This document shows, one piece after another, positions 2,839 to 25,799 of a stretch of 52,800 nucleotides of DNA (positions are counted from its first letter, which is position 1; each line of letters begins with the position of its first letter). This DNA comes from Gemmatimonadota bacterium. Lineage in GTDB: Bacteria > Gemmatimonadota > Gemmatimonadetes > Gemmatimonadales > Gemmatimonadaceae. The notes below the pieces were generated by a model. It was given only the letters and a program-made list of their open reading frames with translations, did not search any database and was not told where the DNA came from. The stretch covers positions 170,987 through 223,786 of the forward strand of contig PLCA01000007.1 in assembly GCA_003134685.1 (NCBI GenBank). Reading direction: 5' to 3'. The translations under genes and the position numbers were made by a program.

Positions 2839-4148
2839 GCGGCTTTGGCCGGCACCGTCTCACCAGTGTGAGACGCCGCGCCGATCGGCAGATCGCGCGC
2901 CCAGGGCGCGATGAAAGGCAGAAGGAGCAGCGGCGGAATCGCCATCGCGATGGTCAGCAGGAAGAATCCCGGCCATCCCAATGATTCCGCAATCTTACCG
3001 GCCGGAGCGACGAGTATATCCCTGCTGGCGGCCATGAGGCTCGAGAGCAGCGCGAACTGCGTGGCGGTAAAGCGCTTGTTGCACATGCTCATCAGATAGG
3101 CCGTCATCGCCCCGGTGACGAGGCCAAGGCCGAAGTTCTCCGTGACGACAGCCGCCACCATGAAGGCGTGGTTCTTTCCCGAGAGCGACAAACCGTAATA
3201 GGTGAGATTGCTCAAGCCCTGGAACACCACAAAAATCCATAGAGAGCGGTTGATCCCCAAAGTCCCCATGACCGCGCCGGCGACGACAACGCCGACGATC
3301 GTCGCGACAACGCCGACGCCCAGAAAAACCGCGCCCACCTCGCTCTGGGAAAAACCCGCCTGGAGTAGGAACGGGGTCGTCATGCTGCCGGCCAGACTAT
3401 CCGAGTATTTGTAGGCGACGATGAAGAGCAGCACCAACAACGCTCGCAGCACGCCGGCGCGCTGAAAGAAATCGGCGAACGGGAGTACGACGGCATCCAC
3501 CAGAGTTTTTGGGGGCGCGTCGCTCAGAACCGGCTCCGGCGCGACGAACGTGGTTGCGATGCCGATGATCATCAGCACCGAAAGAACGAGATACACCATT
3601 TGCCACGACATTCGGTCGGCAAGAAAAAATGCCAGGGCCCCGGTCGTGATCATTGCGATGCGGTAACCCATCACGAACACCGCCGCGCCGGCGCCCATTT
3701 CACGATCCCGAAGCACGTCGGTGCGATATGCGTCGAGCGAGATATCCTGCGACGCGCTGAAGAAGGCGATCGCGATCGCATTGATCGCCAGCATCTTGAG
3801 CCCGACACGAGGGTCGTGCAGCGACATCGCCGCGATCGCGAGGAGCAGCAGCACCTGCGTTATGAAAACCCAGCCACGGCGGCGACCGAGGAACGGCGGG
3901 ACGTAGCGATCCATCAGCGGCGCCCACACGAACTTGAGCGAATACGGGAGCGTGACGAGACTGAAGAAGCCGATCGTGGCGAGATCGACCTTGGCCGTAG
4001 TCATCCACGCCTGGAGAGTCTTGCTGGTGAGGTAGAACGGCAGCCCCGACGAGAATCCGAGGAAGAGGAGCACCGCCATCTTCGGTTGCCCAAAGATTCG
4101 AAGGGCCGATGTTTTTGTGGCGGTCTCGCTCGCGGTGCTCTCGCTCAT
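2811..4148 (-). CDS. ampG: AmpG-like muropeptide MFS permease
   Basis: Imports anhydromuropeptides from the periplasm for recycling. The sequence has about twelve hydrophobic helices and the MFS/AmpG hallmarks near the N-terminus: LGFSSGLPFYLTSKTLQAWM in helix 1, then LPYSLKFVWAPLMDRYVPP and a GRRRGW loop between helices 2 and 3, followed by the SASQDISLDAYRTDVL motif typical of AmpG. At 445 residues it is slightly shorter than the E. coli protein. An AGGGAG ribosome site sits 7-8 bases before the ATG. It follows nagZ by 33 bases and is the last gene of the nagZ-anmK-murQ group, so it supplies the substrate for NagZ. Confidence 0.9.
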   Translation of the reverse strand: MSESTASETATKTSALRIFGQPKMAVLLFLGFSSGLPFYLTSKTLQAWMTTAKVDLATIGFFSLVTLPYSLKFVWAPLMDRYVPPFLGRRRGWVFITQVLLLLAIAAMSLHDPRVGLKMLAINAIAIAFFSASQDISLDAYRTDVLRDREMGAGAAVFVMGYRIAMITTGALAFFLADRMSWQMVYLVLSVLMIIGIATTFVAPEPVLSDAPPKTLVDAVVLPFADFFQRAGVLRALLVLLFIVAYKYSDSLAGSMTTPFLLQAGFSQSEVGAVFLGVGVVATIVGVVVAGAVMGTLGINRSLWIFVVFQGLSNLTYYGLSLSGKNHAFMVAAVVTENFGLGLVTGAMTAYLMSMCNKRFTATQFALLSSLMAASRDILVAPAGKIAESLGWPGFFLLTIAMAIPPLLLLPFIAPWARDLPIGAASHTGETVPAKAAQPPLAPRR

Positions 4149-4181
4149 TGGGCTTCTCCCTCTAGTGGGACAACCGCGCGG

Positions 4182-5672
4182 CTACTGTGCTTCTGGCGCG
4201 CTCTTCCCGGCCTTGTTTGCGGCCAGCTCGCGCAGCAGTACCCGCGCTGCCGCTCGCTGCATCACGGCTTCTCCGCCCCACGCGCATAGGATCGGAGCGT
4301 CCGTATCCAGCTCGGCCGCCAGGCGCGGGTGGCTGAATTGAACGATGAGGCTATCTCCGCCTTTTGCCCGCTCGAGCGTGCGGCGGACGGTTTCCTTTGA
4401 CCACGACGAGTAACCGGGCCTTCCCTTCCAGGCGCGGATGTCGCCAAACAGCGCGATCACGGTGGCTCCGGTGCCACCGGCACCGTCACCATTCACTACC
4501 AGATCCACTCCGCCTGTGCGCAACGCCGAGACGAGAGGATCGCGCGATGGAGCGGGATATGGTCCGCCCAGATCATCGTCCACGATCACGAGATTCCATG
4601 GCTGCCGCAGCCGCGGCAGCTTCCCGTGCAACACGTGCACGACTTGCTCCGTCAGCTGAGTGGACCACCCGCTCTCGTCGCGCCCGACACGATTCGTGTC
4701 GCGCGATAGCGCCGCCCAGCGCGCCCACCTTCTGCGCCGCTCGATCGACTGGTGGATCTTGTCGCCATCAAGCCGTTTTTCGTCGATGGCCTTTTGCACG
4801 GCCGCAATCGAATCGACGACGTTCGTCGGATAGAGCAGACAATCGCAGCCCGCGTCGAGCGCGCGGACCACCGCCTCCGCTTCTCCGCCCTCGAGCACCC
4901 CCTGCATTATCAACGCGTCGGTGACCACGAGACCCGTGAACTCCATCTCATTGCGCAGGAGGTCGGTCAGAATCGCGCGCGAGAGCGTCGCCGGCGCGCC
5001 GCTTGGGTCGAGCGCCGGAAAGGCGACGTGTGCCGACATGATCGACGCGACTCCCCGCTCGATCGCCCGGCGAAACGGAATGAGATCCGTCTCGCGAATC
5101 GTCGCCGCCGATTCCTCGACGCGCGGCAGCGCCTTGTGCGAGTCGACGGTCGTCCGCCCGTGACCGGGAAAATGTTTCGCGCAGGCAAGCACGCCTTCCG
5201 CCTGACACGCGTCGATCCATGCGGCGGCGTACTCGCCCACCCGCTCGGGATCACTTCCGAACGAGCGCGTTCCGATAATCGGATTGTTGGGCTCGACGTC
5301 GATATCGCAGTCGGGAGCGTATATCCAGTTGATTCCCATCTCCCGGGCCTCGGCCGCGCTCACGGCAGCCGATCGACGCACCGCCTGGATGTCCTCCAGG
5401 GACGCGATGGCAGCCAGCGGCGGCAATGCGGTCTGTCCCACGAACTGCTGTCCCGCGCCGCGCTCCAGATCCGCGCCGATCAGGAGCGGGATGTGCGACT
5501 TCGAGTGAAGATGCTCCGTCAGCGTCGCAACTTGCTCCGAAGGACCGCCGAACAGAATGAAGCCGCCGACGCCCAGCTTCAGCGCCTGCTCAATCGCAGG
5601 CCGCTCACCCTCGTGGCCGCGTGAGGCATCCCAGCGGATGGCCGGGTAAAAAAGCTCGGCGATCTCGCTCAT
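4182..5672 (-). CDS. nagZ: Beta-N-acetylhexosaminidase, GH3 (NagZ)
   Basis: Removes GlcNAc from GlcNAc-anhydroMurNAc (peptides) delivered by AmpG. The GH3 domain fills residues 1-330. KHFPGHG at 166-172, with DSH at 177-179, is the mobile loop carrying the NagZ general acid/base His; Asp252 in LVVTDALIM is the expected nucleophile. A second domain of about 130 residues (370-496) resembles the C-terminal GH3 alpha/beta domain, making this longer than the one-domain Gram-negative NagZ and closer to the two-domain form. No signal peptide, so it is cytoplasmic. The ATG overlaps the stop of anmK as ATGA, indicating translational coupling. Confidence 0.92.
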   Translation of the reverse strand: MSEIAELFYPAIRWDASRGHEGERPAIEQALKLGVGGFILFGGPSEQVATLTEHLHSKSHIPLLIGADLERGAGQQFVGQTALPPLAAIASLEDIQAVRRSAAVSAAEAREMGINWIYAPDCDIDVEPNNPIIGTRSFGSDPERVGEYAAAWIDACQAEGVLACAKHFPGHGRTTVDSHKALPRVEESAATIRETDLIPFRRAIERGVASIMSAHVAFPALDPSGAPATLSRAILTDLLRNEMEFTGLVVTDALIMQGVLEGGEAEAVVRALDAGCDCLLYPTNVVDSIAAVQKAIDEKRLDGDKIHQSIERRRRWARWAALSRDTNRVGRDESGWSTQLTEQVVHVLHGKLPRLRQPWNLVIVDDDLGGPYPAPSRDPLVSALRTGGVDLVVNGDGAGGTGATVIALFGDIRAWKGRPGYSSWSKETVRRTLERAKGGDSLIVQFSHPRLAAELDTDAPILCAWGGEAVMQRAAARVLLRELAANKAGKSAPEAQ

Positions 5673-14348: not shown

Positions 14349-16126
14349 GTGAGCGCCGAGCGCGCCCACGCGCCGGGCCACTGCTGCAGCGGTACTATCG
14401 AACGAAGTACCGTTTGTTCGCGCGCGAGAAGCGTCCGCGTCCGCCGCAGCGCGGGCTCATCATGCTTCAGATCGATGCCCTGGCGTATTCCGACCTGCGG
14501 CGCGCGCTCGAGCTGGGCCTTTGCCCGACAATCTCGCGGCTGCTGCGCGAGGGATTTGCTCTCAGGCGTTGGTTCTGCGGACTGCCGTCGGCCACACCGT
14601 ATTGCCAGGCGGGGATGTTTCACGGCGAGAACGGTGGCATTCCGGCGTTTCGCTTCTACGACAAAGCGGCGCGCAAGGTAATCACCTGCAATGCGCCGCA
14701 CGGCGTGCAGTACATCCGCGACCGCATCCATTCGCCGGGCGCGCTCGCCGGCGGCTCCAGCTACGTCAATCTTCTCGACGGTGATGCGCAGACAGTGGCC
14801 TTCACCGTCGCCACGCGTGACAAGATGTCCGTGTATCGCAGGCTTGGCGGAACGCGGATGGGACTCCTCATGCTGCTGCATCCCATTCGCATGGCGCGCA
14901 TGGTTCTTCAGGGCGCCTTCGAATGGCTGCTCGAGGAATGGGAGCGCGCGCGCGGCGAGCTGTCGGGAAGGGTGACGCACTCGGAAGGCATTTTTCCGTT
15001 CATCCGCATTCTCAGCAATGTCGTCGTGCGCGAGCTGCAGACGATGGCGATTCTGCTCGACGTCTATCTGGGTGTACCGATTATTTATAGCACCTTCATG
15101 CAGTACGACGAGCTGGCGCACCACTTCGGGCCGTCGAGCAAGCAGGCACTCGTCGACCTGCGCCGCACCGATGCGCGCATCGCCGAGATCTGGAGAATGG
15201 CTCAGCTCGCGGGTGGACGCGGCTACGACCTCGTCATTCTGTCCGATCATGGAATGACTCCGGCCTTGAGCTACCGGGTGCAGTACGGGGAGTCGCTTGG
15301 AACGACGGTGCAGCAGATTCTCAACGAGACCATGGTGAAGGGCACGCCGCCCTCGCGGTCGTTGGCCAGCTTCGCGGAGGATACCGAATACTCGGACATC
15401 GGCCCCGAGGTCGTCGAAGCCGTCGCACAGCTGACTCCCGCTTCGTTCGGCGCGAGAAGCGCGATTCGCAGGTTCCGCGACTGGCTGAGAAGCCGCTACG
15501 GGTTGCGCGAGATCATTTTCCCCGAGAAGTATCGCGTCGACCGGACGAACGATGTCGTCGTCACCTACAGCTCCTGCCTGGCGCTCCTGTACTTTGCGGC
15601 TACGGAGCAGCGGCTCTCGCTCGAGCAGATAACGGCCGACGCGCGCTGGGCCAGACTCTACGAACGGCTCGTTGCACACCCGGGGATTGGCCTCGTCGCC
15701 ACGGTCTCGCGCGGCGCGGTGAATCTTGCGGGCAAGCACGGCCGGGCGATTCTGCGCGACGGGCAGATCCAGATCATCTCCGGCGAGAATCCGCTCGAGA
15801 TCTTCGGCACCGAGCCGTACGTTTTGCGGGCAGTGGAATCGCTGGTGAATCAGCCGAACGCCGGCGATTGCGTTTTGTTCGGGACGTTCGACGGCTACGA
15901 CATCATCTCGTTCGATGATCAGGTCGGCGCGCACGGGTCGGCCGGCGGCGATCAGGTTTATCCGTTCATCATCTCGCCCGAGCGGCTGGGGCTGGCGGGC
16001 GAATCGCTCGAGGACGCGCGCGACATCCACCGCACGGTCCTGGCGCGCTATGCCGCGGCTAACGCCGAGCACGCTTCTCCTGACGCCGCGCGGTTGACCC
16101 CCGCTGTGCCGCGCACAGCAGTTTGA
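14276..16126 (+). CDS. Alkaline-phosphatase-superfamily phosphodiesterase
   Basis: Soluble hydrolase of the type I phosphodiesterase/nucleotide pyrophosphatase group; substrate unknown. The metal site elements are visible: IMLQIDALAY early in the domain, GLPSATPYCQAGMFHGENGG with the nucleophile-type Thr/Ser, YDELAHHFGP, LVILSDHGM (Asp-His) and a closing DQVGAHGSAGG with a metal His. No signal peptide. The start is uncertain: the longest frame (ATG 14276) overlaps the response regulator by 73 bases; TTG 14414 and ATG 14462 are alternatives, but the last would begin inside the first strand. The segment around LLQRYYRTKYRLFAREKRP looks like genuine protein, favouring one of the earlier starts. 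Confidence 0.82.
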   Translation: MRRCPHQACPNRRAVTSDRTPPGISERRARPRAGPLLQRYYRTKYRLFAREKRPRPPQRGLIMLQIDALAYSDLRRALELGLCPTISRLLREGFALRRWFCGLPSATPYCQAGMFHGENGGIPAFRFYDKAARKVITCNAPHGVQYIRDRIHSPGALAGGSSYVNLLDGDAQTVAFTVATRDKMSVYRRLGGTRMGLLMLLHPIRMARMVLQGAFEWLLEEWERARGELSGRVTHSEGIFPFIRILSNVVVRELQTMAILLDVYLGVPIIYSTFMQYDELAHHFGPSSKQALVDLRRTDARIAEIWRMAQLAGGRGYDLVILSDHGMTPALSYRVQYGESLGTTVQQILNETMVKGTPPSRSLASFAEDTEYSDIGPEVVEAVAQLTPASFGARSAIRRFRDWLRSRYGLREIIFPEKYRVDRTNDVVVTYSSCLALLYFAATEQRLSLEQITADARWARLYERLVAHPGIGLVATVSRGAVNLAGKHGRAILRDGQIQIISGENPLEIFGTEPYVLRAVESLVNQPNAGDCVLFGTFDGYDIISFDDQVGAHGSAGGDQVYPFIISPERLGLAGESLEDARDIHRTVLARYAAANAEHASPDAARLTPAVPRTAV

Positions 16127-16675
16127 GTTCTTTGCCGCGCGCGGTCTTCTCCGGTACGGCAGAGAGGGTCCTCTGCGGCTCCGGGCTCTCGCTCGTTAGT
16201 GGTCCGATCGGATCGGTGCGAGACTAAGGATCAGTCGCTCGGAGAGAGCGTCACCACCGATTGTCGCTCGTGGGTCGTCGCCTACGAGGACCCTCTCCGC
16301 CTTCCCACCGAGTTCGACGCGGGGTCAGACACCTTCGTCGCGCCTCTGGGCGCGCGATCTCAGGTCGCGCGCGCTGTCCTGTTCACCATGCGCGGGAGCG
16401 CGCCGAGCAAAGCTCGGCAGTCCCGTGCTCCCCCACGGGGGCGACGCGGGCACACGCGGCACGAAGCGCCGCTGCAGTTACAGACTGTGGAGGGAGGTGA
16501 GGGTGTCCTCGCAGGCGACGACCCACAAGCGACAATCGGTGCGGTACGCTCTCCTGGAGCGACTAATGTTTGGTCTCGCGCCGATTCGATCGGACCACCA
16601 ACGAGCGAGAGACCGGAGCTGAAGAGGACACCCTCACCGACCACATACAGAGATGCAAGCCGCAGCGCGGCAAGC
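16127..16675. other. 549-base gap without a gene
   Basis: The gap separates the convergent hydrolase and the 16676-17146 gene. It is almost entirely occupied by the large inverted-repeat element at 16164-16635. Open frames that cross it have no family resemblance and no ribosome sites and are not credible genes. Confidence 0.7.
16164..16635. repeat. Large inverted-repeat element A (132/137-bp arms)
   Basis: Two long arms, 16164-16295 and 16499-16635, are imperfect reverse complements (I judge over 80% identity by eye) around a 203-base centre. Each arm is itself bounded by a short inverted pair: GAGGGTCCTC at 16164-16173 and GAGGACCCTC at 16286-16295 in the left arm; GAGGGTGTCCTC at 16499-16510 and GAGGACACCCTC at 16624-16635 in the right arm. 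The centre holds several small hairpins, for example GCCGAGC (16402-16408) with GCTCGGC (16412-16418). No transposase, integrase or target duplication is visible. The same layout recurs at 25273-25723. Function unknown; it could be a structured RNA, a non-autonomous mobile element or a nucleoid/terminator structure. Confidence 0.8.
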
Positions 16676-17146
16676 CTAGAGAGCCGCGGCGCCTTCGACG
16701 ATAGTCTTGAACGCCGAGGCCGAGATCTTCTCGGGCTCGAACTGCTCCCCCGCGCGCTTCATGACGCCACGCACAACCTGGTCGACGGTGACGAGCGGCG
16801 CGTCGGCCTCGGCCCGGACCTCGACCTCCCACTTGCCCCGATCTGGTCCCTTGAGGGTGTGGCGGTATCTCGCCGTGAAAACCGTGTGGCGGTGCACGAT
16901 GATCTCGCGATCCTCTTCCTCGATCGGGAGGAACTCGTCTCCGGCGCTCTCGCTTAGAGCTTCGGGCGGCTCGTCGGGCTCGTGCCGGTGCTGTGGCTCG
17001 GGCGGCAGCGGAATCGCGGCGACGACGGCCACTCCGGTTTCAACGCCCGATTGGCGCAATGGTGGAAACAACCTCACTTCGTCCACGGCGTCCAATCCGA
17101 TGCGGTCGGCTATTTCGCGCAGAAAGCGTTCGGTAGTCTCGATCAC
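16676..17146 (-). CDS. Hypothetical protein next to the ornithine-cyclodeaminase homologue
   Basis: A 156-residue soluble, acidic protein that I do not recognise. It starts with GTG (complement of 17144-17146), preceded by AAGG seven bases upstream. The N-terminal 35 residues look like a helix-strand module (TTERFLREIADRIGLDAVDE); a Pro/Glu-rich linker follows, then a beta-rich part (EEDREIIVHRHTVFTARYRH) and a C-terminal helix ending in FKTIVEGAAAL. It lies 40 bases downstream of the TIGR00300-like gene on the same strand, so the two are probably co-transcribed. Any functional link is inference. Confidence 0.6.
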   Translation of the reverse strand: MIETTERFLREIADRIGLDAVDEVRLFPPLRQSGVETGVAVVAAIPLPPEPQHRHEPDEPPEALSESAGDEFLPIEEEDREIIVHRHTVFTARYRHTLKGPDRGKWEVEVRAEADAPLVTVDQVVRGVMKRAGEQFEPEKISASAFKTIVEGAAAL

Positions 17147-25184: not shown

Positions 25185-25799
25185 CCGTGCAATCTAGACC
25201 CGGCCTGCAGTCGCTACAAGCTGACGGCGCCTCCAGCGGCTCTCTTTCTAGATCGTCGCGCCGGTCAGTCGGGAGGGGATCCTCTTCGCGGCTACGCTCG
25301 CTTGGTCGGAGCCCCTAACTACGCTCCCTCGCTCTGCTCGGTCGCGGGTCTCCTCCTCGCGCTCGCTTTGCAAAGCCGCTGTGAGGACCCCCTCCCTCCT
25401 TCCCGCCGACATCTGTCGAAGAGTGAGCGCTGGCGTCTGTCGCGCTTTGCGCGACCGCAGTTAGTCCGGGCCTCAAGGCCACGTGCGGATCCCGCCCGCT
25501 CGAATGCAGTTAGTCCGGTGCGCCAGGCGCGCCGACTCACTCGGCGTCAACGAGAATCGCGTGGCAAGCTGGGGCGCGTTTCACGGACCTCTCCCGGGAG
25601 AGGCGGGGTGTCCTCGCAGGCGCTTCCCAAAGCGAGCGCGAGGAGGAGACCCGCGACTGAGCGGAGCGAACGGGCGCTGTTAGGGGCTCCGACCAAGCGA
25701 GCGTAGCGCCGGAGAGGATACCCAGACTCGACCCAAGCAGAGATCTGTGAGGGTGCGCCGACAAGATCAGAGCGCGATTCCGCGAGGCGCCGACCCGAG
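25185..25799. other. 615-base gap without a gene
   Basis: Most of this gap is the inverted-repeat element at 25273-25723. The remainder (25185-25272 and 25724-25799) must include the promoter of the 24879-25184 gene and the 3' end of the peptidase transcript, but I see no clear -35/-10 pair or terminator. Frames crossing the element, one of which reads like a signal peptide, lack ribosome sites and are not credible. Confidence 0.7.
25273..25723. repeat. Large inverted-repeat element B (122/119-bp arms)
   Basis: Arms at 25273-25394 and 25605-25723 are long reverse complements around a 210-base centre. Each arm is again bounded by short inverted ends: GAGGGGATCCTC (25273) and GAGGACCCCCTC (25383); GGGGTGTCCTC (25605) and GAGGATACCC (25714). 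The centre contains the perfect palindrome CCTCTCCCGGGAGAGG (25588-25603), hairpin GTCGCGCtttGCGCGAC (25438-25454) and two copies of GCAGTTAGTCCGG (25457 and 25506). It shares with element A the string GTGTCCTCGCAGGCG, the motif CCTTCCCRCCGA beside the left arm and GCAGTTA in the centre. It stands between the peptidase gene and the coupled pair downstream. Function unknown. Confidence 0.8.

Follow-up and report, generated by a model that had tools for sequence, protein, structure and literature searches.

The window, by which we mean the whole 52,800-nucleotide stretch of DNA that was analysed, contains a gap between convergent genes, bounded by a 616-codon open reading frame ending at 16126 and a minus-strand open reading frame at 16676-17146. 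Two arms of the same type (type I) lie in this gap in opposite orientation, on either side of a centre of about 190 bases. The left arm occupies 16158-16301 on the minus strand (G000:C3:187144-187287, where G000 denotes the source genome, 3.63 Mb in 16 contigs and 98% complete) and consists of a 16-pair basal stem, an internal loop and an apical domain; the right arm, inverted relative to it, occupies 16495-16639 on the plus strand (G000:C3:187481-187625). Including flanking pairs, the basal stems are formed by 16158-16173 with 16286-16301 on the left and by 16495-16510 with 16624-16639 on the right. Read from the centre to the outside, the outward strand is the bottom strand for the left arm and the top strand for the right arm. 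The centre itself (16302-16494) holds small hairpins, for example GCGCGGGAGCGCGCCGAGCAAAGCTCGGCAGTCCCGTGC at 16390-16428. Directly outside the left arm, at 16151-16157, begins a left outer flank with a 'C-type' CCGGTACGG end, which is common to several copies (C5:436839, C5:502623 and C11:149556) and to the orthologues in genomes G014, G016, G002 and G009. On the other side the element continues on the plus strand into a right outer tail, ACCACATACAGAGATGCAAGCCGCAGCGCGG (16640-16670), that is kept at many copies of the family.

The inverted repeats I1 (16162-16297) and I2 (16499-16635) are 83-91% complementary. Folded as a single strand, a 501-base stretch reaches -356 kcal/mol, compared with -220 +/- 6.6 for shuffled sequences, giving z-scores of -20.7 on the plus strand and -19.8 on the minus strand. 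An initial annotation of this DNA had placed two long complementary arms at 16164-16635; both are present there, far beyond chance (fold z about -20). Its positions hold, but the basal stems run about four pairs further, to the limits given above, and the unit also includes the right tail. Each arm was further said to have its own inverted ends, of the form GAGGG(TG)TCCTC. These inverted ends are seen in the left arm (16164-16295; GAGAGGGTCCTC and GAGGACCCTCTC) and in the right arm (16499-16635; GAGGGTGTCCTC and GAGGACACCCTC), with 12 of 12 bases paired in both, but the family keeps them as pairs and not as a fixed sequence.

No protein gene had been seen inside the element, and we likewise find no conserved open reading frame across it, because sister species carry unrelated sequence in place of the arm; the two candidates that cross it (16199-16957 on the plus strand and 16360-16644 on the minus strand) were rejected as coding for this reason. 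A search for an intrinsic terminator, that is, a short GC hairpin with a T tract, found no T tract after either arm, and a weak terminator-like match lies within the right arm (16547). No sigma-70-like promoter was found in the copy at 16158-16670. A possible terminator lies upstream of the element at 16103-16119: a short hairpin whose tail is rich in T and which overlaps the end of the preceding gene. Rfam release 15 gave no match to 15900-16900 at E<=1, none at the gathering threshold over the whole window, and none at E<=0.05 for nine loci with other arm types, so that no known Rfam family matches. The judgement that ordinary terminators, REPs and MITEs do not cover this structure fits what we observe.

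Further copies, which the initial annotation had suggested looking for, are numerous. Using the element and the other arm types as queries, we identified 21 scattered twin-arm elements in the source genome, that of an uncultured soil bacterium of the Gemmatimonadaceae. An independent pattern search with the outer arm ends, for which the reversed control gave zero matches, added no further element; its one extra match (C5:113224) was not arm-like. A second copy lies within the window, with two type III arms at 25269-25398 on the minus strand (G000:C3:196255-196384) and at 25600-25729 on the plus strand (G000:C3:196586-196715); the genes neighbouring this copy (25269-25729) are apparently in tandem on the minus strand. 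According to gene calls made around the elements by a simple script from codon usage, about 11 elements are in convergent, 8 in tandem and 2 in divergent settings, so a role purely as the 3' UTR of convergent genes is insufficient. One copy is situated in the ftsA-ftsZ gap (G000:C12, about 128220-128716), between ftsA and a promoter-like region before ftsZ, and another directly upstream of alaS (G000:C11:149556-149975).

The arms follow a common plan: above a basal stem of 15-16 pairs come a purine-rich 3x3 internal loop and a second stem, topped by an apical domain that is exchangeable and, in types II and IV, branched. Types I, II and III occur in the source genome, and types IV and VI-IX in other species. 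Arm length is roughly 115-160 nt, with one shortened arm of 67 nt. Throughout the family the arms are inverted, with their outward ends on the outside and a centre of roughly 100-300 bases between them, and in the genus of the source genome the outer flanks can be sorted into a few types that have a core in common. Both arms were extracted from 28 elements: in 15 they belong to one type, and in the other 13 the types are mixed. We also noted small GC-rich hairpins, such as GCCCGCTTGCGGGC, that are apparently inserted within arms (G002:C81, about 4105-4252, and G000:C1:448754-448886) and that resemble helix growth in structured RNA.

The sites of these elements are stable while their arms are not. 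Most of the element regions in nine sister species group by flanking sequence with element regions of the source genome, leaving a handful unplaced; these genomes are mostly fragmented metagenome-assembled genomes (MAGs), and some of their contigs end within elements. The site at 16158-16670 is common to eight species. There, G014 carries the same arms, G002, G009, G005 and G017 keep the frame but hold different arm types, and G016 and G010 retain only remnants. Whole arms have been exchanged precisely, with the switch point inside the basal stem and with outer flanks and centre that can still be aligned. Among the more distant relatives within the genus, both this site and the ftsA-ftsZ site are empty, though a few related arms are found in two of these genomes. 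In one genome bin, contig G011:C72 has no twin-arm element in the gap after ftsA and carries a different, inverted-looking GCGCTGACCGCTGC repeat; its contig C182 does have an element next to ftsZ, so this bin may mix strains.

Two folds are available to the copy at 16158-16639, because it has two type I arms: each arm can close on itself, or the two can pair across the centre. The cross-centre pairing described by the initial annotation is thus real for the copy at 16164-16635, but it is not general, since 13 of the 28 elements have non-complementary arms. Comparison among copies separates the two folds. We took 88 distinct arms from the source genome and nine other genomes of its genus. Their basal stems contain 1,281 Watson-Crick cells out of 1,408, compared with 1,000 +/- 13 when the 3' halves are shuffled among arms. 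Compensatory changes are strongly represented: changes on both sides that preserve the pair number 179, against 43 +/- 6 after shuffling. Neither set of figures is to be read as a probability, since the search for arms demanded a stem with few mismatches and the shuffle leaves relatedness in place. Comparison within elements is a more direct test of which fold is kept, and here the basal stem pairs better within the arm than across arms in all 28 elements (mean 14.6 versus 10.7 of 16). From these arm comparisons, in which within-arm pairing wins in 28 of 28 cases, arms are non-complementary in 13 and compensation is abundant, we conclude that what is conserved is a pair of independent hairpins, both of them directional. 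The giant cruciform is rejected as a conserved fold; where it can form, it is a by-product of having two like arms in one element. Switching between that cruciform and separate arm hairpins, as the initial annotation had proposed, finds no support.

The direction of an arm can be read from its internal loop. The outer end of the loop begins with TTCG in 65 of the 88 arms and the inner end carries CTAC or CTGC in 68; read from the centre outward, these form a 3x3 internal loop GYA/GAA, whose direction is inverted between the two arms of an element. When imperfect stem pairs are read on the outward strand (the orientation of a few arms being assigned from this sequence signature), G.U outnumbers A.C by 57 to 10, counts that are not independent events because arms are related and have been exchanged between sites. 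The excess is found in left arms (23:5) and right arms (28:4) alike, whether the neighbouring genes are convergent, tandem or divergent. Position 11 supplies much of it, and positions 5-16 without position 11 give 16 versus 7. Of the bases left unpaired when the outward strand is folded by prediction, 42% are A, 31% G and 10% U.

Fold stability differs among arm types. For types II, III and IV the outward strand folds more stably in 50 of 50 arms. In type I, to which the copy at 16158-16639 belongs, the outward strand is preferred in only 7 of 27 arms and there is no clear apical structure; types VII and VIII, with two arms each, show a mixed or opposite preference. Type III contains a small covarying hairpin, in which one pair is CG in 10 sequences and UA in 8, with conserved GA/GA mismatches. 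Taken together, the polar internal loop, the biases in stem pairs and unpaired bases, and the GA/GA mismatches are usual marks of structured RNA. We take the G.U bias and the A- and G-rich unpaired bases as a probable signature of structured RNA, clear in types II-IV and not in type I, and to that extent the suggestion of a structured RNA in the initial annotation fits the evidence. The outcomes which that annotation had named as counting against it did not arise: copies are many, compensation is strong and Rfam gives no match. Single-stranded DNA hairpins could produce a similar bias. Read-through from neighbouring genes is unsupported as its sole cause: arms for which outward transcription from a neighbouring gene would not be expected still show 17 G.U versus 2 A.C, in a comparison that is weakened by arm exchange between sites.

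When a covariance model built from type III arms was run against 179 genomes of the family, it matched 12 genomes of the source genome's genus and four of one other genus, and none in the remaining genera. Arms in this sister genus are likewise laid out as inverted twins, with an apical core of a different kind; about 8 such pairs are oriented as in the genus of the source genome, and the 3x3 internal loop is also present. Of 288 genomes of the order, these four are the only ones in which a pattern for that core occurs. In 24 sister-genus arms, which were found by requiring the stem, 20-base stems are 93% paired although identity among the 5' stem halves of one genome is only 44%; in 22 of the 24 the outward strand gives the more stable fold, and G.U to A.C stands at 14:9. 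The core motif gives about 13-18 matches per genome (G140:C272, G139:C63 and G023:C18), and the hairpins that we looked at have stems of at least 20 bases, mostly of site-specific sequence and near-perfect pairing. A pattern for the arm base, searched in about 85,000 genomes, matched repeatedly mainly in uncultured Gemmatimonadaceae MAGs; scattered matches in other phyla were taken as chance. Distant blastn comparison found nothing similar in plasmid or phage DNA, and a literature search on such repeats in Gemmatimonadota found nothing relevant among the matches listed. To that extent the twin-hairpin family is previously undescribed.

Our preferred reading, to which we assign a probability of roughly one half, is that this family is a twin-hairpin interspersed element acting at the RNA level, with the layout of a REPIN but without REPIN membership. 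The arms would then act as RNA, and a transcript leaving the element would carry one arm in working polarity; with the arms inverted, this would be so whichever strand is transcribed. The exit hairpin and the conserved tail would most likely act on the 3' part of the transcript, through stability, processing or protein binding at the internal loop. Arms are probably swapped by recombination between copies, perhaps helped by breakage at the hairpins, which is a guess. A bolder claim, which we put forward tentatively and with the odds slightly unfavourable, is that these are a new class of structured-RNA element built as an inverted twin, in which either direction of transcription would yield one working hairpin, apical cassettes would be interchangeable between fixed sites, and stems would need to be complementary with almost free sequence. 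Counting against an RNA reading are the lack of outward preference in type I, the lack of a sigma-70-like promoter in the copy at 16158-16670, the concentration of the G.U excess in a few positions, and the 14:9 ratio in the sister genus.

The main rival of the RNA reading treats the copies, read as DNA, as old non-autonomous mobile elements of REPIN- or MITE-like kind, whose hairpins served as (single-stranded) DNA ends recognised by a transposase and which have been inherited vertically since an ancestral burst. REPINs are likewise inverted doublets (PMC3116915), and several features speak for such an origin: the elements are multicopy and lie between genes, each sets two inverted polar hairpins on either side of a spacer, their outer ends are partly conserved, and outgroup members of the genus lack the copy at the ftsA-ftsZ site. 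However, a search of the source genome for a RAYT/Y1 transposase (PF01797) gave no match at E<=0.001, with control genomes positive; because the genome is 98% complete, absence is likely though not proven. There is no clear case of a new insertion among the sister species compared, whose element regions mostly share the sites of the source genome. Empty sites are known solely from diverged relatives, where no target duplication is readable, so none is established, and sister-genus stems differ at most sites, which is unexpected for an end recognised by a transposase. The copies may have originated as a non-autonomous mobile element, as in the initial annotation, but today they occupy fixed, orthologous sites in different species. 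We regard this rival as the strongest alternative, though clearly less probable than the RNA reading.

A device acting at the DNA level, neither RNA nor transposon, for example a cruciform, a single-strand hairpin at the replication fork, or a nucleoid or repair site, is a good deal less probable: long palindromes stable on both strands and sites kept whatever the gene orientation would suit it, whereas the outward-strand G.U bias, the A- and G-rich unpaired bases and sister-genus stems without a sequence-conserved binding core would not. Least probable of all are neutral relics, in which template switching during replication (quasipalindrome correction), and not selection on function, would have kept the palindromes perfect. 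This would account for compensatory change, for locus-specific perfect stems and for deletions to fused ends or remnants (as in G016 and G010 at the 16158-16670 locus), but not for a mismatched 3x3 loop left uncorrected and conserved in sequence in most of the 88 arms and in the sister genus, nor for a fixed arm direction and a strand-specific bias.

The family offers a natural case in which two folds of one sequence, a cross-arm cruciform and arm-local hairpins, can be separated by evolution alone, and in which the hairpin modules at a chromosomal site are replaced although the site itself stays put over genus-scale times. If the RNA reading is true, a little-studied soil phylum gains a family of repeats with about 20 loci in each genome, the ftsA-ftsZ gap and the region upstream of alaS among them, and the family would provide a testable model for interspersed repeats that turn into maintained RNA structures.

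Among known systems, MITE-like elements are similar in being non-coding, multicopy and a few hundred bp long with inverted terminal parts; they differ in that for the twin-arm copies no recent movement is seen, no target duplication is established and a transposase search, which covered PF01797, identified no partner, and in that the arms of one element are often unrelated. BOX and RUP of Streptococcus pneumoniae (PMC3049150) share with our family the character of small interspersed repeats, in an organism unrelated to Gemmatimonadaceae. BOX is a modular, structured repeat, built as a linear array of subunits and not of inverted, swappable hairpins. The mobile hairpins of organelles (GC clusters and double-hairpin elements; PMC4478555 and PMC2800124) are also small hairpin repeats in non-coding DNA, and the small GC-rich hairpins inside our arms are a further likeness; in contrast to them, the twin-arm family resides in a bacterial chromosome, in a fixed frame, with compensatory stems and a conserved internal loop.

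The closest comparison is with REPINs, or REP doublets (BIMEs) with their RAYT transposases, which are inverted doublets (PMC3116915). Twin-arm elements have arms of about 115-160 nt with exchangeable apical domains, in place of palindromes of 20-40 bp; their copies stand at orthologous sites between species; and instead of a REP sequence that is highly conserved and bears a tag (GTAG, for example) they have basal stems that vary and compensate. Because no Y1 transposase was found and the stems lack sequence conservation, we do not regard the family as a member of the REPINs. The layout is nevertheless that of a REPIN, with the arms of 28 elements arranged as inverted pairs: both are dispersed and extragenic, both place two inverted polar hairpins around a spacer, and both maintain several sequence types per genome and persist over long times.
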